The translations under genes and the position numbers were made by a program. From the NCBI RefSeq assembly GCF_030388245.1, contig NZ_CP098361.1, positions 495,001 to 559,000 of the forward strand: a stretch of DNA of 64,000 bases, written 5' to 3'. A model generated the notes under the pieces. The model made no database searches and was not told where the DNA came from. It was given only the letters and a program-made list of their open reading frames with translations. This DNA comes from Paracoccus sp. TOH. GTDB taxonomy: Bacteria > Pseudomonadota > Alphaproteobacteria > Rhodobacterales > Rhodobacteraceae. This document shows positions 760 to 58,187 of this stretch, one piece after another. Numbering within the stretch: position 1 is the first letter of the stretch; each line of letters opens with the position of its first letter.

Positions 760-2478
<1,719 letters not shown>

Positions 2479-10158: not shown

Positions 10159-10214
10159 GGCCTCCTTGCCTCAAAGTTAGCGAAGAAGGCGTCCACGAAA
10201 CATGGGGCTATTCA

Positions 10215-11225
10215 GGTCCAGCAATAGACCAGTTGCCACGGGCCATTGTCGCGCGCGATCTCGGTCATCGCGTTGTAGGACTGGTAGGCGTCGCATTGCA
10301 GGAAGCGGCCGTGGTATCCGGCGAGGAAGTTCAGCGGATGCGCCTTGCCCCGGCCGGGGGCATAGTGGAACAGCACGATGGGTGGGCCAGCCCCGCCATG
10401 ACCACGCTCGTCAGTGACGACGGCCCAGAAGAAGCCGCTCTTGGTGCGTTTCAGGCCCGGTTCCAGCACCGGCGCGCGGGTTTCATCCACGAAGATGCGG
10501 TCTGCGCCACGCAGATGGGCACGCATATGGTTGATGACGGGCATCAGGTGGAAACAGGCGCGCCCGACCCAGTTGCCGAGTGTGCCGCGGTCCAGATCGA
10601 TCCCTTGCCGCTTGAAGATCTCGGCCTGCCGATAAAACGGCAGGTGGTTACCGAACTTCGAGACGATAATCCAAGCGATGAAGAGTTCCGTGGGCAGCCC
10701 GCCGGGCACGACATGCTCGGGGGCATGGGCCTGCGCGACAGCTTGCGAGTAACGGCGGCAGGCGTATTTCGGGCGCCGCGTGACCAGCACCCGGAACTGG
10801 GCGGGGATCACGTCGAGCCGTTCGGACACGTCTTCCCCGATCCTGGACATCTCGCCGCAACCGCAGGGACAGAGCGTGCTGGCAGGCTCGATCACGCGCT
10901 CAACCCGAGGCAGATGGGACGGCAGATGCCCGCGGTTGCGCTTGGGCTTGCGGGGTGTTTCCCCGCGCGCCCGCTGCATCGCCGCTTCGGCCTTTTCTTG
11001 TGCTGCCTCAAGCACACCTTGAGCAAACTCGGCATCTTCCAGGGGCAGGTTGAACTGGTCGGGCGAAAGCTTTTCGGAGCGCTTGCCGAATTTCTCGCGC
11101 TGCGCCGCGTGCAGGATATCCTGCAGCCGCCGATTGGCCTCTTGCGTCTCGGCCAGCGTCGCCTCCACCTCGGCGAGGCGGGCCTTCAGCAAGGCGTTTT
11201 CGCGCGCAAGATCAGCTGTTTCCAT
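10215..11225 (-). pseudogene. IS66-family transposase TnpC, 3' end cut off by IS3
   Basis: About 337 codons from ATG 11225. It shows the coiled N-terminus (AREKFGKRSEKL region), the zinc-like CPCGCGEMSRIGEDVSERLD segment, the DDE start FVDETRAPVLEPG, and YHGRFLQCDAYQSYN with the second Asp. The gene stops at YCWT because the IS3 element begins there, so the catalytic Glu part is missing. It matches the copy at 56277-57290, with the same interruption. Confidence 0.88.
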
Positions 11226-11293
11226 GGCGGGAAGTGAAACACAGGATGCCCTTTCCGGCCAGCAAAAACAGGCGTTTCGACGCAGCCTGCCAG

Positions 11294-11496
11294 TCACCCC
11301 GCCGCCAGCGGGCGCCGCGTCCGTTCGGGGCGGACCATCCGCCAATCCACGCCCTCAAACAGCGCTGCAAACTGCGCGCCGGACATGCGCATGACCCCGT
11401 CGCGCAACTGTGGCCAGACGAATTTGCCGCCTTCCAGCCGCTTGTGAACTAGCACCATGCCGGTCTGATCCCAGAGCAGCAGTTTGATCCTGTCCG
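11294..11496 (-). pseudogene. IS66-family TnpB fragment
   Basis: Only the C-terminal 67 residues remain (LLLWDQTGMVLVHKRLEGG onward). The N-terminal half, present in the intact copy at 55855-56208, is replaced at 11496/11497 by a different IS66 element on the other strand. Confidence 0.85.
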
Positions 11497-12562
11497 ACAT
11501 CGAGGAGAAAGACAAACCGAAGCGCCGCCCCATCCCCGACCATGTCCCCCGGATGGAGGTTGAGCTCAGCCCCGGCACCGATGCCTGTGCCGATTGCGGT
11601 GGCCGCCTGCGTCGGATCGGCGAGGACGTCACGGAAGAGCTGGAGTATGTTCCTGGGCGCTTCATCGTGAACCGGATTGTCCGCCCCCGGCTGACATGCG
11701 CCTGCTGTGAACGCTTCGTCCAGGCCCCGCTGCCCTCTCGCCCCATCGAACGCGGGCGCCCTGGGCCGGGCTTACTGGCCCATGTGCTGGTCAGCAAGTA
11801 TGCTGATCACCTGCCACTTTACCGCCAGAGCCAGATCTTCGACCGCGAGGGACTCGACCTCGACAGATCGACCCTTGCCGACTGGGTTGGCAAGACCACC
11901 GCCCTGCTGGAACCTCTGGCCGACGCCATTGGCCGCCATGTCCTGTCGGCCGACGCGATATTTGCCGATGACACGCCGGTCAGCATGTTGGCGCCCGGCT
12001 CCGGCAAGACCCAGACTGCCCGGCTCTGGACCTATGCTCGCGACGAACGGCCCTGGGGCGGCGAAGCACCGCCCGCAGCCTGGTATCGCTTCTCGGGCGA
12101 CCGAAAGGGGCAGCACCCGTAGGACCATCTCGCCCGCTTCCGCGGCTGGATGCATGCCGACGGCTATGCCGGGCTCAACGATCTCTACCGTTCCGGCGCC
12201 ATTCGCGAGGTCGCCTGCATGGCCCATGTCAGGCGCAAGTTTGTCGACATCCACCGGTCGCAGGGCTCGCCCATCGCCGAAGAGGCCATCGGACGGATCG
12301 CCCGGCTCTATGCCGTCGAGCAGGTGGCACGAGGCTCCCCTCCCGACCGCCGCGCCGAACTGCGAAGGTCCCACGCTGCCCCGGTCTTCGACGACCTCGA
12401 GGTCTGGCTGGCCATGCAACTCACTACGATCTCGGGCAAATCCCCGCTCGCGGCGGCCATCCGCTATGCCCTGACCCGCATGGAACGCCTGCGCCCCTAC
12501 CTCGACCATGGCATCCTGGAGTTGGACAACAACGTTGCCGAACGCGGCATGCGCGCTATCGC
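11497..12562 (+). pseudogene. Second IS66-family TnpC, proximal part (nonsense mutation, 5' truncated)
   Basis: A different IS66 type from the one at 10215. It starts inside the gene (KDKPKRRPIPDHVPRMEVEL), keeps CADCGGRL, the first Asp in FADDTPVSMLAPG, the second Asp in HADGYAGLNDLY, and the Glu motif LDNNVAERGMRAIA. An in-frame TAG at 12120-12122 (expected CAG) splits it. After the codons for AIA it is interrupted by the 2,581-bp recombinase element. The distal part resumes at 15144. Confidence 0.85.
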
Positions 12563-12590
12563 GAGTGGTGAGTCATTATGCCCCTCTTTT

Positions 12591-14663
12591 TCAAGTGTCT
12601 GGAAATATTGGAAGTTGGTTCTGGTCGGCCGCGTGACGCGGGCGTCCTTTCTGTCTAAGTGCCTCGACGACGCATTCGCTCTCGAGTTCTTCGGCCCGGA
12701 TTTGCCAAGGCGCGCCCGGAACGACCTGCTCGGCAGGCAAAATCCCGTCCTGGATCATCCGCCGCACGACATGGCTGGTCACCCCGAGTTTTGCCGCGGC
12801 CTCGCGCATGGTGAGCCAAGCGCCGTCCTTCTCGGCCGAGCGAAAGGCGTGGATACCGCGCACCCTGCGGATGGAGGCCACCCGGTGCGCCGTCCAAGTC
12901 TTGTCCTGGCCGGTGCGCACGCCCATCCGGTTCAAGGTGGCCGCGATATCGGTGTCGGAAAAGCGCGTTGCCATCCGCTCCATCACGGCCAGAGCCTGCT
13001 CGGGCGTCTGGCAACCATGCTCCCCCGTCCTTGGCTTACGCACCCGCAATTGCGAATGCTGACCGCCTTGCCAGTGGATCGTCAGCACGACCTCCCGTGT
13101 CACGTCGTCAATATCGGCGATGATGTCCGAGATCAGCGCCCGGATCAGTTGCTGGCGGCTTCGGGTCGTGACACCCGGCGCCAACCAGGCTGCGGAAAGG
13201 TCCGCCGCCAAGCTCTCGAAGTTGGGCATCGGCGCGGTCGGGTCCAAGGTATCCGTTGCGGCAAGGCGCGCCCGGCAAGCCTCGACACGCCGCAACGCAG
13301 CTTCCCAATGCTTCTCGAGCTGGGCTGCGATAAGCCGGTTCTCCGGGTCGCAGGCGGCATAGCGCCGTTCTGCCAGCGAAGCATCGTATTCTGACTGCTG
13401 CAGATCGAGTTCGGCCACGCGCCGACGCTCGGCCTCTCCTTCCCTGTGCATCCGCTCCGCCTCCAGTGCGGCCTCGATCGCCATCGGCTCGACCACACGC
13501 AGTATCTCCGATGCGATCGCGGCGTCCACACGGGAACCGCCGAAGCTGAGACAACGTGGCAGGCCGAGCATGAGATTGGGCCGGTCGCAGCGATAGGTCG
13601 GGCGCCCCGGCGGGGCGCCGGCATAGGCGACCGCCAGGCCGCGGCCACAGCGCCCGCAGGTCAGCATGCCGGCAAGAAGGGCACGACCGCCCCGCCCGGA
13701 CTTCTGTCCTCCCGTACGTCCATAGGCGTTGGCTGCGAGCAGCATCTGGTTCCGCTCGTATTCCGCCCAATCAATATAGGCGGCATGATGATCATGGATA
13801 AGCACGTCCCACGCTTCCGGTGGTTTGCCATGGCCGTAGGACTTGCGCGCGCGCCCGTCGACCAATTCGATCCGCTTCTCGCTCTTTCCATAAACATAGG
13901 TTCCTGCGTAGAAGGGGTTCTTCAGCAGGCCGATGACATTGCGGTAGCGGATTGCTGTCCAGTCGAAGGATGTCAGGCGCTTCCCGTCCGAAGGCCGCGG
14001 AAAGAACACCCCCTCCGCCGCCAGCGACAGATGCGTCTGCCGCGCGCTGCCGAGTTGGCGGAACCGTTCGAAGACCAACCGGATCACTTGCTGGAGCCGG
14101 AAGTCGGGATCGAGGCCGAGCCCGATATCGCGATGCCAGATATAGCCGATCGGCACGCTGATCCGAAGTTCGCCGCGGCGGGCCTTCGCCCGGGCGGCGT
14201 CAATCATGCGTGCTCGGATCACCCCGAGTTCAAACTCGCTGATGCTGCCCTTCATGCCGAGCAGCAGGCGGTCGTTCGGCAGGCAGGGATCGTAGATGCC
14301 ATCGAGGTCGATGACACGCGCCTCGACAAGCCCGCACAGTTCGAGCAGGTGGTGCCAGTCCCTGCCATTGCGTGCCAGCCGCGAAGCGTCAAAGCAGAGC
14401 ACGGCGCCGACTTCCCCGGCGCACAAGGCGGCGACGAGCTTCTCGAAGCCGGGCCGGGCCACCATGCCGCTGGCGGAGCGGCCAAGATCGTCGTCGATCA
14501 CATCCACGGTCCGGAAACCACGACGACGCGCGACCTCGACCAGCTCATATTGCCGTCGCCGGCTCTCGGTGTTGAGTTCGACTTGGGCTTGGGTTGATTG
14601 ACGCACATAGACCACCGCCTTGCGCTGCAGGATGGCCGGCGGAAGGAGATCACCGTCCATCAT
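12591..14663 (-). CDS. 690-aa large serine recombinase of the IS66-targeting element
   Basis: Resolvase N-terminal domain with VVYVRQST (Ser23 likely nucleophile), then SASGMVARPGFEKLVAAL and DASRLARNGRDWHHLL. The recombinase domain follows (VPIGYIW, then LKNPFYAGTYVYGKS), then a zinc ribbon CGRCGRG with CDRPNLMLGLPRC near residues 345-380 and a coiled segment. Unusually, the C-terminus adds an excisionase/MerR-like HTH (LTMREAAAKLGVTSHVVRRM) near residues 620-660. It presumably cuts, exchanges and joins DNA at the IS66 tnpC site. The ATG overlaps the end of the 58-aa gene by 14 bp, implying coupled translation. The protein looks identical in the three copies. Confidence 0.92.
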   Translation of the reverse strand: MMDGDLLPPAILQRKAVVYVRQSTQAQVELNTESRRRQYELVEVARRRGFRTVDVIDDDLGRSASGMVARPGFEKLVAALCAGEVGAVLCFDASRLARNGRDWHHLLELCGLVEARVIDLDGIYDPCLPNDRLLLGMKGSISEFELGVIRARMIDAARAKARRGELRISVPIGYIWHRDIGLGLDPDFRLQQVIRLVFERFRQLGSARQTHLSLAAEGVFFPRPSDGKRLTSFDWTAIRYRNVIGLLKNPFYAGTYVYGKSEKRIELVDGRARKSYGHGKPPEAWDVLIHDHHAAYIDWAEYERNQMLLAANAYGRTGGQKSGRGGRALLAGMLTCGRCGRGLAVAYAGAPPGRPTYRCDRPNLMLGLPRCLSFGGSRVDAAIASEILRVVEPMAIEAALEAERMHREGEAERRRVAELDLQQSEYDASLAERRYAACDPENRLIAAQLEKHWEAALRRVEACRARLAATDTLDPTAPMPNFESLAADLSAAWLAPGVTTRSRQQLIRALISDIIADIDDVTREVVLTIHWQGGQHSQLRVRKPRTGEHGCQTPEQALAVMERMATRFSDTDIAATLNRMGVRTGQDKTWTAHRVASIRRVRGIHAFRSAEKDGAWLTMREAAAKLGVTSHVVRRMIQDGILPAEQVVPGAPWQIRAEELESECVVEALRQKGRPRHAADQNQLPIFPDT

Positions 14664-14826
14664 CGCTTCCCTCCGGTTCGCTTTCTCCCGCCGCTTCGGC
14701 CAGGAGGATGGCCAGGCACGTCACCACCTGCTGGCGCTCCTGGAGACTCATCCCGCGCAACCGCTTCGAGTCGAACTGCATCTGTAGTTGCCTGGGGCAT
14801 GAAGGCTTGATGGGCAGGTCTTGCAT
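14650..14826 (-). CDS. Small protein of the recombinase element (58 aa)
   Basis: Start at ATG 14826 is chosen for the AAAGGAA upstream. The protein begins MQDLPIKPSCPRQLQ and contains MSLQERQQVVTCLAILLAEA, a helix that could contact DNA or the recombinase. It overlaps both neighbours: its start lies inside the DUF5372-like gene, and its stop lies inside the recombinase start. No known family recognised. Its conservation in three copies and its tight packing argue it is real. Confidence 0.7.
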   Translation of the reverse strand: MQDLPIKPSCPRQLQMQFDSKRLRGMSLQERQQVVTCLAILLAEAAGESEPEGSDDGR

Positions 14827-15100
14827 CGGTCTGTTCCTTTCCGGCGATGAGATCACCGGAAGAGCTTCGCCGAAGACCGCGCCGACTCAGAAGGTCATCG
14901 AGATCTGACAGGGCCGCGAGCGACACGCGCGGTGTGCCAAGGTCCATGCCGGTGCAAGCCGCCGGATCGAGCATCCACGCGGTCACGACCATGAACACTC
15001 CAGGCAGCACCTCGATATGGACGAACTGGCCGGACTTGCGTCGGTCGACACGCTCCACCCGAAACTGTCGGCCGAAAAGCGCGTGCCAGCGATAATGCAC
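14660..15100 (-). CDS. DUF5372-like protein of the recombinase element
   Basis: 146 aa from a GTG start, although the frame is open further toward the element end. The core VHYRWHALFGRQFRVERVDR, then FVHIEVLPGVFMVVTAWMLD and a leucine-rich end (SLAALSDLDDLLSRRGLR), resembles DUF5372 proteins, which are commonly found beside recombinases of this type. The last 60 residues are low-complexity and overlap the 58-aa gene, so the functional part is probably the first 90 residues. Role unknown; possibly an accessory or directionality factor. Confidence 0.65.
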   Translation of the reverse strand: MHYRWHALFGRQFRVERVDRRKSGQFVHIEVLPGVFMVVTAWMLDPAACTGMDLGTPRVSLAALSDLDDLLSRRGLRRSSSGDLIAGKEQTDARPAHQAFMPQATTDAVRLEAVARDESPGAPAGGDVPGHPPGRSGGRKRTGGKR

Positions 15101-15143
15101 CTCAACAAATTGCCCGACATGGGCAGAATGAACGGGTGATGGC

Positions 15144-15358
15144 TCTCGGGCGGAAGAATTACCTCTTCGTCGGATCCGAGGCAGGTGGAAAGGTCGCCGC
15201 CATCGCCTACACCCTGATCGAAACCGCCAAGTTCAATGCCGTCGATCCCCACGCTTGGCTCGCCGACACCATCGCCCGTATCCCCGACTACAGGATTACC
15301 AAGGTCGACGACCTGCTGCCGTGGCGCTGGACGGATAGCAGTCAGGCCGGACGCTTAC
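15144..15358 (+). pseudogene. Distal end of the second IS66 TnpC with right IS66 terminus
   Basis: Continues the gene interrupted at 12562: LGRKNYLFVGSEAGGKVAAI, then LIETAKFNAVDPHAWLAD and DDLLPWRW, typical IS66 TnpC end. No stop occurs before the IS66 terminal sequence CCGGACGCTTAC at 15347-15358 (inward GTAAGCGTCCGG), which marks the right end of the element. The frame happens to remain open to 15645. Confidence 0.82.
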
Positions 15359-24468: not shown

Positions 24469-24655
24469 GTAAGCGTTTCCTGGCCCCCACCTTCCCGCCT
24501 TTGTCCTGATCGGCGCATTGGATGTTTGTGATGATCAGGACGGAGTTTCTCCATGGAGGCTGCATTGGAGGTTCTTCCGGCTGGTGGCCGAAGCCGCCGG
24601 AACCGGAAGTGGCCAAATGAGATGAAGGCACGGGTTGTGGCGGCAACGCTGCTGC
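24469..24655 (+). mobile_element. IS66-family left end with start of TnpA
   Basis: The terminal GTAAGCGTTTCCTGGCC at 24469 is followed at 24553 by the first ~30 codons of TnpA (MEAALEVLPAGGRSRRNRKW). The gene breaks near 24650 and joins, head to head, the end of an IS66 tnpC on the other strand. Confidence 0.7.
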
Positions 24656-24699
24656 CACCGCCGTCCGAGCCAGCGAAGAGGCTGTTCTTGCGGTTGAGG
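24655..24699 (-). pseudogene. IS66 TnpC, short distal piece
   Basis: Codes for LNRKNSLFAGSDGGG, the segment right after the recombinase-element insertion point, then ends at the junction with the TnpA fragment. The proximal part is at 27281-28671. Confidence 0.75.
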
Positions 24700-24742
24700 G
24701 CCATCACCCGTTCATTCTGCCCATGTCGGGCAATTTGTTGAG

Positions 24743-25183
24743 GTGCATTATCGCTGGCACGCGCTTTTCGGCCGACAGTTTCGGGTGGAGCGTGTCGACC
24801 GACGCAAGTCCGGCCAGTTCGTCCATATCGAGGTGCTGCCTGGAGTGTTCATGGTCGTGACCGCGTGGATGCTCGATCCGGCGGCTTGCACCGGCATGGA
24901 CCTTGGCACACCGCGCGTGTCGCTCGCGGCCCTGTCAGATCTCGATGACCTTCTGAGTCGGCGCGGTCTTCGGCGAAGCTCTTCCGGTGATCTCATCGCC
25001 GGAAAGGAACAGACCGATGCAAGACCTGCCCATCAAGCCTTCATGCCCCAGGCAACTACAGATGCAGTTCGACTCGAAGCGGTTGCGCGGGATGAGTCTC
25101 CAGGAGCGCCAGCAGGTGGTGACGTGCCTGGCCATCCTCCTGGCCGAAGCGGCGGGAGAAAGCGAACCGGAGGGAAGCGATGA
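24743..25183 (+). CDS. DUF5372-like protein, copy 2
   Basis: Same sequence as the gene at 14660-15100: GTG start, core VHYRWHALFGRQFRVERVDR, low-complexity tail overlapping the 58-aa gene. First gene of the element, reading toward the recombinase. Confidence 0.65.
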   Translation: MHYRWHALFGRQFRVERVDRRKSGQFVHIEVLPGVFMVVTAWMLDPAACTGMDLGTPRVSLAALSDLDDLLSRRGLRRSSSGDLIAGKEQTDARPAHQAFMPQATTDAVRLEAVARDESPGAPAGGDVPGHPPGRSGGRKRTGGKR

Positions 25184-25193
25184 TGGACGGTGA
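25017..25193 (+). CDS. Small element protein (58 aa), copy 2
   Basis: Same as 14650-14826. It starts inside the DUF5372-like gene after AAAGGAA and ends 14 bp inside the recombinase gene. Confidence 0.7.
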   Translation: MQDLPIKPSCPRQLQMQFDSKRLRGMSLQERQQVVTCLAILLAEAAGESEPEGSDDGR

Positions 25194-27252
25194 TCTCCTT
25201 CCGCCGGCCATCCTGCAGCGCAAGGCGGTGGTCTATGTGCGTCAATCAACCCAAGCCCAAGTCGAACTCAACACCGAGAGCCGGCGACGGCAATATGAGC
25301 TGGTCGAGGTCGCGCGTCGTCGTGGTTTCCGGACCGTGGATGTGATCGACGACGATCTTGGCCGCTCCGCCAGCGGCATGGTGGCCCGGCCCGGCTTCGA
25401 GAAGCTCGTCGCCGCCTTGTGCGCCGGGGAAGTCGGCGCCGTGCTCTGCTTTGACGCTTCGCGGCTGGCACGCAATGGCAGGGACTGGCACCACCTGCTC
25501 GAACTGTGCGGGCTTGTCGAGGCGCGTGTCATCGACCTCGATGGCATCTACGATCCCTGCCTGCCGAACGACCGCCTGCTGCTCGGCATGAAGGGCAGCA
25601 TCAGCGAGTTTGAACTCGGGGTGATCCGAGCACGCATGATTGACGCCGCCCGGGCGAAGGCCCGCCGCGGCGAACTTCGGATCAGCGTGCCGATCGGCTA
25701 TATCTGGCATCGCGATATCGGGCTCGGCCTCGATCCCGACTTCCGGCTCCAGCAAGTGATCCGGTTGGTCTTCGAACGGTTCCGCCAACTCGGCAGCGCG
25801 CGGCAGACGCATCTGTCGCTGGCGGCGGAGGGGGTGTTCTTTCCGCGGCCTTCGGACGGGAAGCGCCTGACATCCTTCGACTGGACAGCAATCCGCTACC
25901 GCAATGTCATCGGCCTGCTGAAGAACCCCTTCTACGCAGGAACCTATGTTTATGGAAAGAGCGAGAAGCGGATCGAATTGGTCGACGGGCGCGCGCGCAA
26001 GTCCTACGGCCATGGCAAACCACCGGAAGCGTGGGACGTGCTTATCCATGATCATCATGCCGCCTATATTGATTGGGCGGAATACGAGCGGAACCAGATG
26101 CTGCTCGCAGCCAACGCCTATGGACGTACGGGAGGACAGAAGTCCGGGCGGGGCGGTCGTGCCCTTCTTGCCGGCATGCTGACCTGCGGGCGCTGTGGCC
26201 GCGGCCTGGCGGTCGCCTATGCCGGCGCCCCGCCGGGGCGCCCGACCTATCGCTGCGACCGGCCCAATCTCATGCTCGGCCTGCCACGTTGTCTCAGCTT
26301 CGGCGGTTCCCGTGTGGACGCCGCGATCGCATCGGAGATACTGCGTGTGGTCGAGCCGATGGCGATCGAGGCCGCACTGGAGGCGGAGCGGATGCACAGG
26401 GAAGGAGAGGCCGAGCGTCGGCGCGTGGCCGAACTCGATCTGCAGCAGTCAGAATACGATGCTTCGCTGGCAGAACGGCGCTATGCCGCCTGCGACCCGG
26501 AGAACCGGCTTATCGCAGCCCAGCTCGAGAAGCATTGGGAAGCTGCGTTGCGGCGTGTCGAGGCTTGCCGGGCGCGCCTTGCCGCAACGGATACCTTGGA
26601 CCCGACCGCGCCGATGCCCAACTTCGAGAGCTTGGCGGCGGACCTTTCCGCAGCCTGGTTGGCGCCGGGTGTCACGACCCGAAGCCGCCAGCAACTGATC
26701 CGGGCGCTGATCTCGGACATCATCGCCGATATTGACGACGTGACACGGGAGGTCGTGCTGACGATCCACTGGCAAGGCGGTCAGCATTCGCAATTGCGGG
26801 TGCGTAAGCCAAGGACGGGGGAGCATGGTTGCCAGACGCCCGAGCAGGCTCTGGCCGTGATGGAGCGGATGGCAACGCGCTTTTCCGACACCGATATCGC
26901 GGCCACCTTGAACCGGATGGGCGTGCGCACCGGCCAGGACAAGACTTGGACGGCGCACCGGGTGGCCTCCATCCGCAGGGTGCGCGGTATCCACGCCTTT
27001 CGCTCGGCCGAGAAGGACGGCGCTTGGCTCACCATGCGCGAGGCCGCGGCAAAACTCGGGGTGACCAGCCATGTCGTGCGGCGGATGATCCAGGACGGGA
27101 TTTTGCCTGCCGAGCAGGTCGTTCCGGGCGCGCCTTGGCAAATCCGGGCCGAAGAACTCGAGAGCGAATGCGTCGTCGAGGCACTTAGACAGAAAGGACG
27201 CCCGCGTCACGCGGCCGACCAGAACCAACTTCCAATATTTCCAGACACTTGA
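25180..27252 (+). CDS. 690-aa large serine recombinase, copy 2
   Basis: Protein apparently identical to the one at 12591-14663: catalytic VRQST, recombinase domain, zinc ribbon and C-terminal HTH. Two adjacent ATG codons begin the gene. The stop lies 28 bp before the element end. Confidence 0.92.
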   Translation: MMDGDLLPPAILQRKAVVYVRQSTQAQVELNTESRRRQYELVEVARRRGFRTVDVIDDDLGRSASGMVARPGFEKLVAALCAGEVGAVLCFDASRLARNGRDWHHLLELCGLVEARVIDLDGIYDPCLPNDRLLLGMKGSISEFELGVIRARMIDAARAKARRGELRISVPIGYIWHRDIGLGLDPDFRLQQVIRLVFERFRQLGSARQTHLSLAAEGVFFPRPSDGKRLTSFDWTAIRYRNVIGLLKNPFYAGTYVYGKSEKRIELVDGRARKSYGHGKPPEAWDVLIHDHHAAYIDWAEYERNQMLLAANAYGRTGGQKSGRGGRALLAGMLTCGRCGRGLAVAYAGAPPGRPTYRCDRPNLMLGLPRCLSFGGSRVDAAIASEILRVVEPMAIEAALEAERMHREGEAERRRVAELDLQQSEYDASLAERRYAACDPENRLIAAQLEKHWEAALRRVEACRARLAATDTLDPTAPMPNFESLAADLSAAWLAPGVTTRSRQQLIRALISDIIADIDDVTREVVLTIHWQGGQHSQLRVRKPRTGEHGCQTPEQALAVMERMATRFSDTDIAATLNRMGVRTGQDKTWTAHRVASIRRVRGIHAFRSAEKDGAWLTMREAAAKLGVTSHVVRRMIQDGILPAEQVVPGAPWQIRAEELESECVVEALRQKGRPRHAADQNQLPIFPDT

Positions 27253-27280: not shown

Positions 27281-28671
27281 GTCTGGGGCCTGATAGCCCG
27301 CTCGACGATGGCGGAGTCGAGTTCAATCAGGCCGTCGGTCAGGAAGCGCTCGAAGATGTCGCGCCGGGCGATGGCATAGCGGATGGCCTCGGCCAGCTTC
27401 GATTTGCCCGAGATGCGGGGCAGTGTCTGCTGCCAGAGGGCGAACAACTCGGCGACGATGGGCGCGGAGATGGCCTGCCGCGCGGCGGCGCGGGCCTCGG
27501 GGCTCTGGCCGCGCACCTGGGCCTCGAGCTTCCACAGATCGGCCATGCGCTCGACCGTGGTGGTGGCGACCTGGCTGTCCCCCGCGGTGTGGAGCTCAAA
27601 GAACCGCCGCCGGCTATGGGCCCAACATCCAGCGAGGCGCGGGCCATCATTGCCCCCATCCTTGCGGACAAGCTGGTTGTAGGCGGCATAGCCGTCCACC
27701 TGGAGGATGCCGCCGTAGCCGCCGAGATGTCGGCGCACACATTCTCCGGATCGGCTGTCCTCGAAGCGATAGGCCACCATGGGTGGCCCGCTGCCGCCGA
27801 AGGTGCTGTCGTCGCGGGCATAGGCCCAGAGCCAGGCCTTTTTCACCGCGCCGGTGCCGGGCGCGAGGGTCGGCAGGCTGGTTTCATCGGCGAAGACGCG
27901 CGGGCCCTTCAGGATTTCGCCCAGCACATGCGCAGCGAGGATCTCCAGCTCGAAGCCGACCCGGCCCATCCATTGCGCCATCAGACGCCGGTCGATCTCC
28001 ACCCGGTCGCGGGCATAGATCCCTTCCTGCCGGAACAGCGGCAGGCCATCGGCATATTTGGAGACCGCGATCTGGGCCAGCAATGCCTCGGTCGGCAGGC
28101 CGCTTTCGATGATGTGGGCCGGGGCGAGCGCCTGGACGACGCCATCCGCGTCCTTGAACGCATATTTCGGGCGGCGGGTGACGATGACACGGAACCTGGC
28201 CGGAATGACATCCAGCCGCTCCGAGATGTCTTCGCCGATCAGCACTTTCTTTCGGCCCGCGTGTTCCGGCAGGTTCTCGGGTTCGATCACCACCTCGACC
28301 CGCTCGAGATGGGGCGCAAAGCCCTTGCGCGGCCGCGGAGCCTGCTTCTCGCCCGAGGTCCGGCCTTGACCTGTCTGCGACCTCAGCGCCGAGATGCCGG
28401 TTTCGATCTCCTCGAAGACGAAGGTCTGCTGCGCCTCTTCGTCAGCACCAGCCCCAGCAGTGCCAAGCTTCTCGGAGCGCCGCCCGAACCGGGCCCGGTC
28501 ATAGGCCTTCAGGATCTGCATCAGCCGCTTGATCCGCGCGTCGGCATCGAGGCTGCGGGCCTTCAGGGCCGCATTCTCGTCCTCCAGCACGGCCGTCTTC
28601 TCCGCCATGGCGCGGACCATGGCCTTGAGCAGGTCCATGTCATCGGGCAGGGAAAGATCGTCGGTGCGCAT
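27281..28671 (-). pseudogene. IS66 TnpC, proximal part interrupted by the recombinase element
   Basis: About 464 codons from ATG 28671 (MRTDDLSLPDDMDLLK). It has the coiled N-terminus with RFGRRSEKLG, the ISERLDVIPARFRVIVTRRP block, the first Asp in VFADETSLPTLAPG, the second in LQVDGYAAYNQLV, and the Glu motif LDSAIVERAIRPQT right before the insertion. Only 15 bp upstream of the start lies an ISL3-type terminal repeat, so tnpA and tnpB of this element are gone. Confidence 0.85.
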
Positions 28672-48278: not shown

Positions 48279-48483
48279 TTAGCTTGACGGGCTGAAGTTC
48301 CAGGGCAGCAGGTCGTTGATCTTTGCCTGTGGGTGGCTGGCGGCCACCGCTTCCAAGGTTGCCTTGAGGTAGGCGAAGGGTTCGACACTGTTGATCTTTG
48401 CGGTGGCGATCAGAGATGCGATGCGCGCCCACGATCGCCCTCCCACGTCATGGCCGGCGAAGAGCGCATTCTTGCGGGTCAGG
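48279..48483 (-). pseudogene. IS66 TnpC, distal part
   Basis: Codes for LTRKNALFAGHDVGGRSWAR, then LIATAKINSVEPFAYLKATL and INDLLPWNFSPSS with stop. The proximal part is at 51065; the recombinase element lies between. Confidence 0.83.
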
Positions 48484-48526
48484 GCCATCACCCGTTCATT
48501 CTGCCCATGTCGGGCAATTTGTTGAG

Positions 48527-48967
48527 GTGCATTATCGCTGGCACGCGCTTTTCGGCCGACAGTTTCGGGTGGAGCGTGTCGACCGACGCAAGTCCGGCCA
48601 GTTCGTCCATATCGAGGTGCTGCCTGGAGTGTTCATGGTCGTGACCGCGTGGATGCTCGATCCGGCGGCTTGCACCGGCATGGACCTTGGCACACCGCGC
48701 GTGTCGCTCGCGGCCCTGTCAGATCTCGATGACCTTCTGAGTCGGCGCGGTCTTCGGCGAAGCTCTTCCGGTGATCTCATCGCCGGAAAGGAACAGACCG
48801 ATGCAAGACCTGCCCATCAAGCCTTCATGCCCCAGGCAACTACAGATGCAGTTCGACTCGAAGCGGTTGCGCGGGATGAGTCTCCAGGAGCGCCAGCAGG
48901 TGGTGACGTGCCTGGCCATCCTCCTGGCCGAAGCGGCGGGAGAAAGCGAACCGGAGGGAAGCGATGA
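48527..48967 (+). CDS. DUF5372-like protein, copy 3
   Basis: Same protein as at 14660 and 24743. In this copy the frame stays open upstream into the IS66 flank, as far as 48398, so an extended fusion protein is possible but unlikely to matter. Confidence 0.65.
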   Translation: MHYRWHALFGRQFRVERVDRRKSGQFVHIEVLPGVFMVVTAWMLDPAACTGMDLGTPRVSLAALSDLDDLLSRRGLRRSSSGDLIAGKEQTDARPAHQAFMPQATTDAVRLEAVARDESPGAPAGGDVPGHPPGRSGGRKRTGGKR

Positions 48968-48977
48968 TGGACGGTGA
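48801..48977 (+). CDS. Small element protein (58 aa), copy 3
   Basis: Same as 14650-14826 and 25017-25193; overlaps the genes on both sides. Confidence 0.7.
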   Translation: MQDLPIKPSCPRQLQMQFDSKRLRGMSLQERQQVVTCLAILLAEAAGESEPEGSDDGR

Positions 48978-51036
48978 TCTCCTTCCGCCGGCCATCCTGC
49001 AGCGCAAGGCGGTGGTCTATGTGCGTCAATCAACCCAAGCCCAAGTCGAACTCAACACCGAGAGCCGGCGACGGCAATATGAGCTGGTCGAGGTCGCGCG
49101 TCGTCGTGGTTTCCGGACCGTGGATGTGATCGACGACGATCTTGGCCGCTCCGCCAGCGGCATGGTGGCCCGGCCCGGCTTCGAGAAGCTCGTCGCCGCC
49201 TTGTGCGCCGGGGAAGTCGGCGCCGTGCTCTGCTTTGACGCTTCGCGGCTGGCACGCAATGGCAGGGACTGGCACCACCTGCTCGAACTGTGCGGGCTTG
49301 TCGAGGCGCGTGTCATCGACCTCGATGGCATCTACGATCCCTGCCTGCCGAACGACCGCCTGCTGCTCGGCATGAAGGGCAGCATCAGCGAGTTTGAACT
49401 CGGGGTGATCCGAGCACGCATGATTGACGCCGCCCGGGCGAAGGCCCGCCGCGGCGAACTTCGGATCAGCGTGCCGATCGGCTATATCTGGCATCGCGAT
49501 ATCGGGCTCGGCCTCGATCCCGACTTCCGGCTCCAGCAAGTGATCCGGTTGGTCTTCGAACGGTTCCGCCAACTCGGCAGCGCGCGGCAGACGCATCTGT
49601 CGCTGGCGGCGGAGGGGGTGTTCTTTCCGCGGCCTTCGGACGGGAAGCGCCTGACATCCTTCGACTGGACAGCAATCCGCTACCGCAATGTCATCGGCCT
49701 GCTGAAGAACCCCTTCTACGCAGGAACCTATGTTTATGGAAAGAGCGAGAAGCGGATCGAATTGGTCGACGGGCGCGCGCGCAAGTCCTACGGCCATGGC
49801 AAACCACCGGAAGCGTGGGACGTGCTTATCCATGATCATCATGCCGCCTATATTGATTGGGCGGAATACGAGCGGAACCAGATGCTGCTCGCAGCCAACG
49901 CCTATGGACGTACGGGAGGACAGAAGTCCGGGCGGGGCGGTCGTGCCCTTCTTGCCGGCATGCTGACCTGCGGGCGCTGTGGCCGCGGCCTGGCGGTCGC
50001 CTATGCCGGCGCCCCGCCGGGGCGCCCGACCTATCGCTGCGACCGGCCCAATCTCATGCTCGGCCTGCCACGTTGTCTCAGCTTCGGCGGTTCCCGTGTG
50101 GACGCCGCGATCGCATCGGAGATACTGCGTGTGGTCGAGCCGATGGCGATCGAGGCCGCACTGGAGGCGGAGCGGATGCACAGGGAAGGAGAGGCCGAGC
50201 GTCGGCGCGTGGCCGAACTCGATCTGCAGCAGTCAGAATACGATGCTTCGCTGGCAGAACGGCGCTATGCCGCCTGCGACCCGGAGAACCGGCTTATCGC
50301 AGCCCAGCTCGAGAAGCATTGGGAAGCTGCGTTGCGGCGTGTCGAGGCTTGCCGGGCGCGCCTTGCCGCAACGGATACCTTGGACCCGACCGCGCCGATG
50401 CCCAACTTCGAGAGCTTGGCGGCGGACCTTTCCGCAGCCTGGTTGGCGCCGGGTGTCACGACCCGAAGCCGCCAGCAACTGATCCGGGCGCTGATCTCGG
50501 ACATCATCGCCGATATTGACGACGTGACACGGGAGGTCGTGCTGACGATCCACTGGCAAGGCGGTCAGCATTCGCAATTGCGGGTGCGTAAGCCAAGGAC
50601 GGGGGAGCATGGTTGCCAGACGCCCGAGCAGGCTCTGGCCGTGATGGAGCGGATGGCAACGCGCTTTTCCGACACCGATATCGCGGCCACCTTGAACCGG
50701 ATGGGCGTGCGCACCGGCCAGGACAAGACTTGGACGGCGCACCGGGTGGCCTCCATCCGCAGGGTGCGCGGTATCCACGCCTTTCGCTCGGCCGAGAAGG
50801 ACGGCGCTTGGCTCACCATGCGCGAGGCCGCGGCAAAACTCGGGGTGACCAGCCATGTCGTGCGGCGGATGATCCAGGACGGGATTTTGCCTGCCGAGCA
50901 GGTCGTTCCGGGCGCGCCTTGGCAAATCCGGGCCGAAGAACTCGAGAGCGAATGCGTCGTCGAGGCACTTAGACAGAAAGGACGCCCGCGTCACGCGGCC
51001 GACCAGAACCAACTTCCAATATTTCCAGACACTTGA
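48964..51036 (+). CDS. 690-aa large serine recombinase, copy 3
   Basis: Protein apparently identical to the two other copies, with catalytic VRQST, zinc ribbon CGRCGRG and C-terminal HTH intact. All three copies therefore look functional, implying recent spread. Confidence 0.92.
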   Translation: MMDGDLLPPAILQRKAVVYVRQSTQAQVELNTESRRRQYELVEVARRRGFRTVDVIDDDLGRSASGMVARPGFEKLVAALCAGEVGAVLCFDASRLARNGRDWHHLLELCGLVEARVIDLDGIYDPCLPNDRLLLGMKGSISEFELGVIRARMIDAARAKARRGELRISVPIGYIWHRDIGLGLDPDFRLQQVIRLVFERFRQLGSARQTHLSLAAEGVFFPRPSDGKRLTSFDWTAIRYRNVIGLLKNPFYAGTYVYGKSEKRIELVDGRARKSYGHGKPPEAWDVLIHDHHAAYIDWAEYERNQMLLAANAYGRTGGQKSGRGGRALLAGMLTCGRCGRGLAVAYAGAPPGRPTYRCDRPNLMLGLPRCLSFGGSRVDAAIASEILRVVEPMAIEAALEAERMHREGEAERRRVAELDLQQSEYDASLAERRYAACDPENRLIAAQLEKHWEAALRRVEACRARLAATDTLDPTAPMPNFESLAADLSAAWLAPGVTTRSRQQLIRALISDIIADIDDVTREVVLTIHWQGGQHSQLRVRKPRTGEHGCQTPEQALAVMERMATRFSDTDIAATLNRMGVRTGQDKTWTAHRVASIRRVRGIHAFRSAEKDGAWLTMREAAAKLGVTSHVVRRMIQDGILPAEQVVPGAPWQIRAEELESECVVEALRQKGRPRHAADQNQLPIFPDT

Positions 51037-51064: not shown

Positions 51065-51200
51065 GCGATCGGGCGGATCAGGTTTTCCACACTGTTGGAG
51101 TCGATCTCGACACGGCCGTCGTGCAGGAAAGTCTGCAGTCCGTCCCAGTGGCGGTGGATGTAGGCCAGCTTTTCGCCGGAGCGTCTGCCATGCACGGCCT
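51065..51200 (-). pseudogene. IS66 TnpC, short proximal piece
   Basis: Codes for SGEKLAYIHRHWDGLQTFLH, then the Glu motif IDSNSVENLIRPIA, directly before the recombinase insertion. Everything upstream of about 51200 is unrelated, so this tnpC had already lost its N-terminal 400 codons or lost them later. Confidence 0.8.
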
Positions 51201-51601
51201 GGTTCGTAAGCCTGCGGTGAAGGCCGCCTGCTCTGATTGAGCAAATGGTCGTAAGGCATTGCCTTATGGTATGCGCTTCAGTTGTTTCACCAATCGAGAT
51301 CTTCGCTGCTGATGAGGTCGGCCCCATCAGCCGGTGGACAGGACCTCGCAGCACAGCGTCAGCCAAGGAATGTGGAGTTCAGCCGCCGCTTACCCCCTTC
51401 GCAGGCATGGAGGCGTTCAGTTAGTCACCAGAGGGCGATGTATGCCTGCCTCAACGGCTTCTTGCAAAAAGATTTGCATAAGATGTAATGCTAGAGGCGG
51501 CGCAGGCTAAGGTGCCGTAACCGCCGGACAGATATCAGCGCTCGACTAAGTGCCCGCCGCTTGATAGCTCTCTATACTTTCTGGGACGGCCATAGATGAG
51601 T
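51201..51601. other. Gap left of the GT90-like gene
   Basis: 400 bp. A minus-strand frame (GPTSSAAKISIGETTEAHTI) runs into the IS66 piece and may be another IS scrap; its family was not identified. No other feature seen. Confidence 0.4.
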
Positions 51602-55855: not shown

Positions 55856-56208
55856 TGTTCGGCCAGGGCGGCCCGGTGAAGGTTTTCGTGGCGACCCGGC
55901 CTGTCGACTTTCGCAAGGGGATCGACGGATTGGCACTGGCGGTGCAGGAGATGTTCGGGATGGATCCGTTCTGTGGAGCCGCATTCGTCTTCCGGGCGAA
56001 ACGCGCGGACAGGATCAAACTGCTGCTCTGGGATCAGACCGGCATGGTGCTAGTTCACAAGCGGCTGGAAGGCGGCAAATTCGTCTGGCCACAGTTGCGC
56101 GACGGGGTCATGCGCATGTCCGGCGCGCAGTTTGCAGCGCTGTTTGAGGGCGTGGATTGGCGGATGGTCCGCCCCGAACGGACGCGGCGCCCGCTGGCGG
56201 CGGGGTGA
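55855..56208 (+). CDS. tnpB: IS66-family TnpB
   Basis: 117 aa from ATG 55855 (a GTG one codon earlier is possible). It has the classic TnpB features: VKVFVATRPVDFRKGIDGLA, then FVFRAKRADRIKLLLWDQTG and VLVHKRLEGGKFVWPQ. Accessory protein of unknown biochemical role. Complete here, truncated at 11294-11496. Confidence 0.92.
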   Translation: MFGQGGPVKVFVATRPVDFRKGIDGLALAVQEMFGMDPFCGAAFVFRAKRADRIKLLLWDQTGMVLVHKRLEGGKFVWPQLRDGVMRMSGAQFAALFEGVDWRMVRPERTRRPLAAG

Positions 56209-56276
56209 CTGGCAGGCTGCGTCGAAACGCCTGTTTTTGCTGGCCGGAAAGGGCATCCTGTGTTTCACTTCCCGCC

Positions 56277-57290
56277 ATGGAAACAGCTGATCTTGCGCGC
56301 GAAAACGCCTTGCTGAAGGCCCGCCTCGCCGAGGTGGAGGCGACGCTGGCCGAGACGCAAGAGGCCAATCGGCGGCTGCAGGATATCCTGCACGCGGCGC
56401 AGCGCGAGAAATTCGGCAAGCGCTCCGAAAAGCTTTCGCCCGACCAGTTCAACCTGCCCCTGGAAGATGCCGAGTTTGCTCAAGGTGTGCTTGAGGCAGC
56501 ACAAGAAAAGGCCGAAGCGGCGATGCAGCGGGCGCGCGGGGAAACACCCCGCAAGCCCAAGCGCAACCGCGGGCATCTGCCGTCCCATCTGCCTCGGGTT
56601 GAGCGCGTGATCGAGCCTGCCAGCACGCTCTGTCCCTGCGGTTGCGGCGAGATGTCCAGGATCGGGGAAGACGTGTCCGAACGGCTCGACGTGATCCCCG
56701 CCCAGTTCCGGGTGCTGGTCACGCGGCGCCCGAAATACGCCTGCCGCCGTTACTCGCAAGCTGTCGCGCAGGCCCATGCCCCCGAGCATGTCGTGCCCGG
56801 CGGGCTGCCCACGGAACTCTTCATCGCTTGGATTATCGTCTCGAAGTTCGGTAACCACCTGCCGTTTTATCGGCAGGCCGAGATCTTCAAGCGGCAAGGG
56901 ATCGATCTGGACCGCGGCACACTCGGCAACTGGGTCGGGCGCGCCTGTTTCCACCTGATGCCCGTCATCAACCATATGCGTGCCCATCTGCGTGGCGCAG
57001 ACCGCATCTTCGTGGATGAAACCCGCGCGCCGGTGCTGGAACCGGGCCTGAAACGCACCAAGAGCGGCTTCTTCTGGGCCGTCGTCACTGACGAGCGTGG
57101 TCATGGCGGGGCTGGCCCACCCATCGTGCTGTTCCACTATGCCCCCGGCCGGGGCAAGGCGCATCCGCTGAACTTCCTCGCCGGATACCACGGCCGCTTC
57201 CTGCAATGCGACGCCTACCAGTCCTACAACGCGATGACCGAGATCGCGCGCGACAATGGCCCGTGGCAACTGGTCTATTGCTGGACCTGA
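56277..57290 (+). pseudogene. tnpC: IS66-family TnpC, 3' end cut off by IS3
   Basis: 337 codons from ATG 56277, ending YCWT where IS3 begins (the stop TGA is the first codon of the IS3 end). It holds the first two Asp of the DDE triad (FVDETRAPVL, LQCDAYQSYN) but not the Glu. Same sequence as 10215-11225. Confidence 0.88.
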
Positions 57291-58187
57291 ATAGCCCCAT
57301 GTTTCGTGGACGCCTTCACGTCTCATCACCTCCCGCCGTTCGAACTCGGCGGGCGACAGCATCCCGTTCCTCGCATGCTTGCGCTTCGGGTTGTAGAACA
57401 TCTCGATATAATCGAACACGTCCTGCCTTGCGTCTTCGCGGGTCCTGTAGGTTCTGCGCCTGATCCGCTCGCGCTTGAGCAGGTTGAAGAAGCTCTCGGC
57501 GACTGCGTTGTCGTGGCAGTTGCCGCGGCGGCTCATGGAATGCTCCAGATTGTGGGCGCGCAGAAACGCAGCCCAATCCATGCTGGTGAACTGACTTCCC
57601 TGATCCGAGTGGATCAGCACCTTGGTCTTCGGTTTTCGCCGCCAGACCGCCATGAGCAGGGCCTGAAGGACGACATCTGTCGTCTGCCTGCTTTGCATCG
57701 ACCAACCGACCACGCGCCGGGAATAGAGGTCAATGATCACCGCGAGGTAAGCGAAGCCCTCCTGCGTCCGGATGTAGGTGATATCGGTCACCCAGACCTT
57801 ATCCGGGGCCTCGACATCGAACTGCCGGTCGAGGGTGTTGTCGACCACGACCGACGGCTTGCCACCATAACTTCCGGGGCGGCGCTTGTAGCCGATCTGT
57901 GCCTTGATCCCCGCAAGCTGCGTCAATGTCAATCGGGCGACCCGGTTCGGACAGATGCTTTCACCCTGTTCCACCAGATCATCATGCAGCTTGCGGTAAC
58001 CGTAGACCTTGCCGCTCTCAACCCAGGCCTCCTGCAGCAACTCGGTCTGGCGCCTGTCTTCCTGGGCTCGCGCGCTCACCGGCGCCTGCAGCCAGGCATA
58101 GAACCCGCTCGGCTGGATGCGCAGGCACCGGCACATCGCACGGATGGAAAACTGACCCCGATGCTCGGCCACGAACGCGTATCTCAC
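57288..58187 (-). CDS. IS3-family OrfB
   Basis: 300 codons lie inside the element, starting at GTG 58187 over the end of orfA. The DDE motifs are VWVTDITYIRTQEGFAYLAV, HSDQGSQFTS and NAVAESFFNLLKRE. No stop codon occurs within the IS: the frame passes through the terminal repeat (HETWGYS) and continues antisense through the IS66 tnpC to 56265. The functional protein is the first ~293 residues, expressed as a frameshift fusion with OrfA. Confidence 0.88.

Follow-up and report, generated by a model that had tools for sequence, protein, structure and literature searches.

The 64,000-nucleotide stretch of Paracoccus sp. TOH analysed here (contig NZ_CP098361.1, positions 495,001 to 559,000; referred to below as the window) contains three copies of a 2.6-kb element that encodes a large serine recombinase. 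Each copy interrupts tnpC, the transposase gene of an insertion sequence (IS) of the IS66 family. From left to right, the element consists of one half of a putative attachment site (attP), an open reading frame (ORF) of 146 aa with a GTG start (ORF1), a second one of 58 aa (ORF2), the gene for the 690-aa recombinase, and the other attP half. The copies, their genes and the interrupted host genes are located as follows.

12563..15143, minus strand: element copy 1, 2,581 bp including one GC core; bounds from the three-way comparison and the intact relative L064
24700..27280, plus strand: element copy 2, 2,581 bp; bounds from the three-way comparison and the intact relative L065
48484..51064, plus strand: element copy 3, 2,581 bp; bounds from the three-way comparison
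12591..14663, minus strand: large serine recombinase of copy 1, 690 aa, with Resolvase, Recombinase and Zn_ribbon_recom domains, a coiled coil and a C-terminal helix-turn-helix (HTH) of the HTH_17/excisionase type
25180..27252, plus strand: recombinase of copy 2, from its ORF
48964..51036, plus strand: recombinase of copy 3, from its ORF
14660..15100, minus strand: ORF1 of copy 1, 146 aa, GTG start, DUF5372-like
24743..25183, plus strand: ORF1 of copy 2, by copy identity
48527..48967, plus strand: ORF1 of copy 3, by copy identity
14650..14826, minus strand: ORF2 of copy 1, 58 aa, overlapping ORF1 and the start of the recombinase gene
25017..25193, plus strand: ORF2 of copy 2, by copy identity
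48801..48977, plus strand: ORF2 of copy 3, by copy identity
11754..12562, plus strand: 5' part of the tnpC hosting copy 1; PF03050 match (G000:C2:506754-507572)
15144..15333, plus strand: 3' part of the tnpC hosting copy 1; PF13817 match at 15211-15324, TnpC residues 435-501
27281..28101, minus strand: 5' part of the tnpC hosting copy 2; PF03050, 93.7% to the intact L065 over 300 bp
24650..24699, minus strand: 3' remnant of the tnpC hosting copy 2; 89.6% to L065 over 48 bp
51065..51204, minus strand: 5' remnant of the tnpC hosting copy 3; PF03050 profile positions 221-270
48300..48483, minus strand: 3' part of the tnpC hosting copy 3; PF13817 match, TnpC residues 483-551

Copies in unrelated IS66 hosts

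Once oriented, the three 2,581-bp copies showed 0 differences, copy 1 being inverted relative to the others. The host gene was split as ATC GC / T CTC GGG CGG AAG AAT (I-A/L-G-R-K-N) by copy 1, CAG AC / C CTC AAC CGC AAG AAC (Q-T/L-N-R-K-N) by copy 2 and ATC GC / C CTG ACC CGC AAG AAT (I-A/L-T-R-K-N) by copy 3, and the recombinase gene is antisense to tnpC in all three. This confirmed the initial annotation, which had described three copies of this length, each at the homologous codon of a different IS66 tnpC. It had also given the residues before the insertion as I-A/T; the A/T part holds and the I part does not, the residues being I-A, Q-T and I-A.

Two intact paralogues in the same genome allowed us to read the insertions base by base. 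For copy 1, the upstream block aligned with L064 up to base 2309 and the downstream block resumed from base 2311 at its base 2 (register 2310). For copy 2, the upstream block aligned with L065 up to base 2321 and the downstream block resumed from base 2324 at its base 3 (register 2322). The flanks of both alignable copies rejoin with zero bases gained or lost, while those of copy 3 matched neither L064 nor L065. All three hosts are decayed: the first has a TAG inside the 5' part of tnpC, the second a short C end, of which 48 bp are recognised, and the third a short N end that covers profile positions 221-270 only. The 4.5-Mb assembly contained no further full copy, two other weak matches being different recombinases, and nine PF03050 (tnpC) matches, including intact tnpC devoid of the element.

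Three identical copies could also have been produced if a single insertion had been copied together with its IS66 host, by transposition or duplication of the composite. Compared in pairs, the 300 bp of host DNA upstream of each copy were similar over at most 42, 13 and 34 bp, and for this reason we consider the three hosts to be different IS66 elements. As the elements inside them are identical, co-copying is refuted for the window, and we regard it as a very improbable origin of the three copies. Plasmid pSF83666a of Sinorhizobium fredii argued in the same sense. It carries the element three times, in three IS66 sites, with 100% identity across 2,579 bp. When the 400-bp flanks were compared, two of the pairs lacked any similarity and one shared stretches of 58 and 33 bp. 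At L189, the best left-flank match of our script was a gene further out, and the junction bases fitted tnpC by eye. This plasmid set is an apparently independent repeat of the pattern seen in the window.

Co-copying does seem real in Mesorhizobium sp. AR02, whose plasmid pMspAR02c contains four near-identical copies (at most 2 substitutions and one gap) in two IS66 hosts, each present twice. In the first pair, a 5,172-bp stretch made of IS66 plus the element is found at two places, 99.87% identical and with different outer flanks, and it ends both times at the same inverted repeats, CGTAAGCGC. No clean target duplication was found at one of these places, and six bases are shared at the other. 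The second pair is 97.2% identical, with less clear ends. We take the composite of the first pair as a likely case of an IS66 that moved together with its passenger. The copies outside the window thus appear to fit both independent insertion (pSF83666a) and hitch-hiking inside IS66 (AR02).

Another possibility is that the element was moved between tnpC genes by gene conversion or homologous recombination. The insertion at homologous codons would be accounted for in this way, and on the Microvirga ossetica plasmid NZ_CP016617 two identical copies (L187 and L190) carry swapped halves of two IS66 genes, as might be seen after an inversion between two copies of the element. In the window, however, the host sequences next to the copies have hardly anything in common, and the copies cease to be similar at the crossover dinucleotide, which leaves recombination between tnpC genes little chance as the explanation.

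Element genes and the tnpC insertion site

In a profile search, the recombinase scored above the respective cut-offs of PF00239, PF07508 and PF13408. Its Y-x-R-x-S motif (Y18, R20, S22) is invariant in alignments of 28 and 20 relatives, S22 being presumably the catalytic serine. Five PDB sequence matches were obtained, including two YokA constructs and TnpX. The AlphaFold model (mean predicted local distance difference test score [pLDDT] 69.5, predicted template modelling score 0.34), in which domain placement is unreliable, predicts the expected order of catalytic domain, long helix, zinc-ribbon region, helices 375-469 and terminal helical segments. No DDE transposase family was found for the recombinase or for ORF1 among profile hits up to E = 1. 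The IS607-type transposase profile NF033518 gave 20.6 bits for a cut-off of 110, and the recurrent single target is also unlike IS607. By its domains and junctions, the element is thus classified as a large-serine-recombinase element.

The initial annotation had referred to a DUF5372-recombinase gene set. ORF1 does align, at 17-23%, with three DUF5372-annotated proteins encoded near related recombinases; the likeness stands at this level and not at that of Pfam, where no DUF5372 hit was found up to E = 1. The AlphaFold model of ORF1 was poor (mean pLDDT 57.5), and no PDB match was obtained at E <= 0.001; weaker, Tudor-like matches were disregarded. Our survey comprised 163 loci, 82 with at least 60% identity to the recombinase and 81 below, and both groups include fragments because identity was that of the best tblastn segment. 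An ORF1 homologue was detected by tblastn at 70 of the 82 and 14 of the 81 loci, and an ORF2 homologue at 59 and 0, respectively. In four comparisons, the ratio of nonsynonymous to synonymous substitution rates (dN/dS) was 0.07-0.15 for the recombinase, 0.18-0.46 for ORF1 and 0.29-0.36 for ORF2. These ratios are rough because dS was up to 2.0 in one comparison, and those of ORF1 and ORF2 are both distorted by partial overlap. ORF1 and ORF2 are less constrained than the recombinase.

At E <= 1e-50, matches were present in 12 of 385 genomes of the class and 12 of 398 of the phylum (own genome counted in both); at 1e-90, they were present in 16 of 248, 2 of 300 and 20 of 247 genomes of two families and one order. 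No match to peptide patterns of the element was found in viral contigs. Fifty-eight loci came from one scan of genome contigs, further ones were matches from these genome searches, and 20 plasmid regions were hand-picked to span identities, out of 496 matching plasmid records; the sample of loci is not random. The 82 loci with at least 60% identity corresponded to 77 distinct insertions, as judged from 18-base flanks that may merge a few separate ones (L043 with L166 and L177). A junction was readable on at least one side in 63 of them and on neither side in 14; 30 later loci (L187-L216) stand outside the 63. The tnpC site was hit in 58 of the 63, with TnpC recognised on both flanks in 37. L025 and L036 were placed in tnpC by reading translations, L036 having no script label. 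The close homologues therefore do not sit mostly at unrelated sites, which had been the concern raised with the initial annotation.

A recombinase tree, built by a quick method with a midpoint root, comprised 109 rows, from the 118 of 163 loci with a full open frame after identical proteins were dropped. It contained a 47-row clade with a Shimodaira-Hasegawa-like approximate likelihood ratio test value of 100, made up of 42 tnpC insertions (on one or both flanks), 3 other and 2 unresolved ones. Some of the tree labels were assigned by hand (tyr, tnpC2, other, L001), and L180 is mislabelled tnpC1 on account of a nearby IS66, its junction fitting tnpB. The idea of a parasite specialised on IS66 transposases thus applies to the close clade and does not extend to distant relatives, which are found in other mobile-element genes. 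As a separate observation, the right end of the element at L017 abuts a piece of another resolvase gene, and elements of this family may therefore recombine together.

In the reading orientation, host-GC-N7-NG..CATT is found at the left junction and AATGA-N10-GC-host at the right one, so that in the joined ends a GC lies at the centre, flanked by similar halves. The core dinucleotides of the window copies are the following.

12561..12562, no strand: core GC of copy 1 on the side of the recombinase 3' end, corresponding to bases 1 and 2 of the Ala codon interrupted in tnpC
15142..15143, no strand: core GC of copy 1 at the end that carries ORF1
24700..24701, no strand: core GC at the left end of copy 2
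27281..27282, no strand: core GT closing copy 2 on the right, where the opposite strand reads the host Thr codon ACC
48484..48485, no strand: core GC at the left end of copy 3
51065..51066, no strand: core GC at the right end of copy 3

The attP reconstructed from these ends, AATGA...-GC-N7-CGTTCATT, is pseudo-palindromic. Over 49 and 38 sequences, the identity between its halves was 0.53 in register and 0.21-0.33 when they were shifted, in a half-site comparison that left out seven loci (L013, L014, L025, L029, L030, L038 and L008). No junction repeat beyond the 2-bp core was found in the window copies, the ends being similar attP halves. The core GC is formed by the first two bases of the conserved tnpC Ala codon, and a host with Thr at this place reads GT on the other strand. 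Among the 34 insertions read on both sides, three of which lie outside tnpC (L013, L029, L038), the left and right cores were GC/GC in 25, GC/GT in 3, GT/GT in 2, GT/GC in 2, GT/AC in 1 and GC/GA in 1. The last one (L029) is a mis-anchor of the script and reads GC by eye, which brings GC/GC to 26 of 34. Unequal cores, such as the GC and GT of copy 2, would arise if the exchanged dinucleotide contained a mismatch that replication later resolved.

Because the core GC is self-complementary, orientation is expected to be free. It had been described as always the same relative to tnpC. This is true of the three window copies and had to be rejected elsewhere, since 12 of the 58 tnpC insertions (sets assigned by hand) are opposite to them, also between close sisters (L016/L020, L007/L033-L034, L159/L102, L046/L026-L031-L032 and L100/L099).

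That 58 of the 63 close copies with a readable junction lie inside IS66 could also mean that certain IS66 elements carry the module as a structural passenger, in which case it would be no separate parasite. The occurrence of both orientations, the differing IS66 hosts, the intact element-free tnpC in the same genome and the presence of relatives in unrelated genes make this highly unlikely. Still less credit can be given to a low-specificity serine transposase that hits IS66 through its abundance: IS genes are indeed common on these replicons, but the same codon was used in 58 of 63 cases, and recombinases that are related tend to be found at a common position of the same gene.

We therefore favour, with a probability of about 90%, the view that a large serine recombinase drives a minimal integrative element, which inserts at one conserved site of IS66 tnpC. 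This view is supported by sequences that show exact insertion at a preferred site, around a dinucleotide core and in either orientation, by the identity of copies whose hosts are unrelated, and by the hitch-hiking pattern. Several points weigh against it. No excised circle, enzymology, or gain or loss between strains has been observed. The half-sites of the bacterial target (attB) are weakly alike (0.337 in register versus 0.18-0.30 otherwise), and a few junctions mismatch at the core (GT/AC at L028; L008 by eye). The orientation bias (46 of 58) goes beyond what a palindromic core alone explains; it may come from asymmetric arms. Finally, five of the 63 insertions are off the tnpC site: L013 lies in a small gene for a putative membrane protein, the left flanks of L014 and L030 are not IS66 and their right end is missing, and L029 and L038 share one other gene of unknown family, in two genera.

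L029 and L038 form a side branch of the IS66 clade, in a gene reading ...ALRDLA/RWLYRQLEAEYD..., and are a readable case of target switching. The ORFs abutting the right ends of L013, L029 and L038, and the left ORF of L013, matched no Pfam family. A DUF6088/AbiEi-like ORF to the left of L038 was rejected as the target, its frame differing from that of the interrupted gene.

Distant relatives and the rest of the window

Many distant relatives (33-47% identity) were found at recurring sites in other mobile genes. For the 81 loci below 60%, the script gave two-flank target evidence in 19, one-flank evidence, which is weaker, in 33 and none in 29. Because the query set comprised mobile-element genes only, mobile targets are over-represented in these figures for the wider family. 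Two-flank evidence pointed to a second tnpC site a few codons downstream (L041, L083); to tnpB near residue 50 (L113, L114, L117) and near residue 98 (L094); to istB near residue 105 (L082, L134); to OrfB of IS3 at YN/xxRPH (L104, L119, L121, L148), L104 and L119 having supplied the joined IS3 queries, so that these two match by construction and were accepted from a reading of their halves; to the IS110 transposase near residue 219 (L145, L151, L176) and near residue 86 (L084); and to the reverse transcriptase (RT) of group II introns (L105, L147), with another place in L124. L105 supplied the RT query halves, and both halves recur at L200, L214 and L215. By reading translations, both halves of a tyrosine recombinase interrupted at IQxLLG/H were recognised in L116 and L175. 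A third place in tnpB (near 70) and a second one in istB (near 213) were seen with one flank or Pfam ends only. The list for the whole family comprises two sites in IS66 tnpC, up to 3 in IS66 tnpB, up to 2 in IS21 istB and two in RT, besides the IS3 and tyrosine recombinase sites and PGVG/P in the IS110 transposase, some of them known from one flank.

One type of recombinase is present in four copies in a single chromosome (L135, L145, L151, L154), in four different IS110 genes. When eleven target labels were placed on the tree, 23 changes were counted, versus a mean of 61 after shuffling (0 of 200 shuffles as low), in a test that counts unassigned rows as a label; for the istB label alone, clustering was less clear, 42 of 500 shuffles giving as few changes. 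On the Microvirga and Mesorhizobium AR02 plasmids (W03 and W02), we also observed multicopy distant recombinases of 34-37% identity (e.g. L204, L206 and L207); that of L206 abuts tnpB near residue 69.

These data make it somewhat more probable than the opposite that the recombinase family as a whole consists of tiny hyperparasites of selfish DNA, whose clades are locked on conserved motifs of different mobile genes, diversify by switching genes and act as reversible brakes on ISs. A purely mobile-element tropism is weakened by the ORFs abutting L097 and L106, which look like ordinary genes, by L112, which lies beside ubiX, by the exceptions in the close clade, and by the use of mobile-only queries. 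Upstream of both L045 and L127 lies an HTH ORF of 157 aa, a candidate target or a candidate element gene.

The first features of the window are the terminal part of a large-subunit rRNA gene, a 5S rRNA and a tRNA at 760-833 (anticodon CAT by eye). A second large serine recombinase gene (793-2478, minus strand, 561 aa) overlaps this tRNA, and it looks as if a genomic island had integrated there. No second copy of the last 24 tRNA bases was found in the window at 20 of 24 or more matching. Between 19413 and 60223, glycosyltransferase domains, a UDP-glucose/GDP-mannose dehydrogenase and a sulfotransferase lie among ISs (ten ORFs scanned), which suggests a surface polysaccharide region. Two inverted 1,312-bp repeats (10185-11496 and 56006-57317), reported to be 100% complementary, overlap cut-off IS66 tnpC matches that extend to 188 and 163 of the 284 PF03050 profile positions; they are two more IS66 remnants.

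Proposed mechanism and related systems

Large serine recombinases excise their element as a circle and integrate it conservatively. By the same scheme, the recombinase would excise the present element as a circle whose joined ends form the pseudo-palindromic attP, and insert it into IS66 tnpC, whose conserved codons for I-R-P-I-A / L-x-R-K-N would serve as the attB. Crossover would take place at the GC of the Ala codon, or at GT where the host residue is Thr, and insertion could occur either way round, the self-complementary GC setting no direction. TnpC would be cut just after E-R-x-I-R-P, a stretch that we take to hold the catalytic Glu, with removal of the C-terminal 60-70 residues, hence the presumed loss of function. 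The IS66 concerned is probably inactivated in cis, so that insertion may silence it; its ends may still allow movement of the composite in trans. Copy number could rise when the element leaves one sister after replication, through transfer, or together with IS66 mobilised in trans. The C-terminal HTH is perhaps a built-in directionality factor, and ORF1 and ORF2 are putative helpers. The circle, the activity of the enzyme, the loss of TnpC function and the roles of ORF1, ORF2 and the HTH are what we infer beyond the sequences. By analogy, the choice of target follows the logic of homing elements: tnpC is conserved, multicopy and mobile in its own right, and the cell can do without it.

Such a serine-integrase element would live off ISs by aiming at codons that these can hardly change, with a bearing on what checks IS numbers in bacteria. 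It also bears on how integrases gain new targets, sister clades with different readable attB forming a natural series. For annotation, where fragments of 'IS66 transposase' adjoin a 'recombinase family protein', they can derive from a single gene that was split in two. The numerous recombinases for which attP and attB were inferred are also a possible resource for targeted DNA insertion.

We found no description of a serine recombinase targeting IS66 in the literature on these enzymes in IS66 or transposase genes; coverage was partial, and this is weak evidence of novelty. The accessible parts of PMC6209633, PMC3925955, PMC3281130 (on Paracoccus) and PMC9203015 contained nothing on this element.

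The element resembles large serine recombinase (LSR) systems such as phiC31, Bxb1, TnpX and SPbeta YokA in its Resolvase, Recombinase and zinc-ribbon domains, its coiled coil, its attP and attB and its dinucleotide core. It differs from them in the lack of phage or conjugative cargo, its total size of 2.6 kb, the excisionase-type HTH at the C terminus of the same protein and its target in a transposase gene. Group II introns in IS elements and IS4321-type ISs in transposon ends are likewise mobile DNA that targets mobile DNA; these, and also res-site hunters, use other enzymes and other kinds of target site. Homing introns and inteins have conserved active-site codons as a lasting target and are removed by splicing. 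Unlike them, the present element has no splicing and breaks the gene unless it is excised.

The papers compared below are represented by the parts available to us. The res-site hunters of the Tn5053 family also are mobile DNA aiming at other mobile DNA (PMC7765201). Durrant et al. (2022) described LSR clusters that each disrupt one conserved gene, as the present recombinases do; the enriched targets named are competence genes and Mg chelatase/protease, and IS66 appears 0 times in the available main text (PMC10083194). The phiRv1 element, located in the repeat REP13E12, is similarly a serine recombinase element in a repeated sequence; unlike the present one, it is prophage-like, and REP13E12 is not called an IS in the part of the source at hand (PMC9317374). 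The closest parallel is with the helper-embedded phage-inducible chromosomal islands (PICIs) of Tommasini et al. (2023), in which one integrase clade comprises subclades at 14 sites in prophage late genes, each subclade thus at a different site in the genes of another mobile element (PMC10111431). PICIs differ in being phage satellites with prophage helpers, many genes and, in the available text, no IS-gene targets (PMC10111431). For the present element, insertion inside IS66 and the co-mobilisation pattern of AR02 were observed, and IS66 would at most be a candidate helper.

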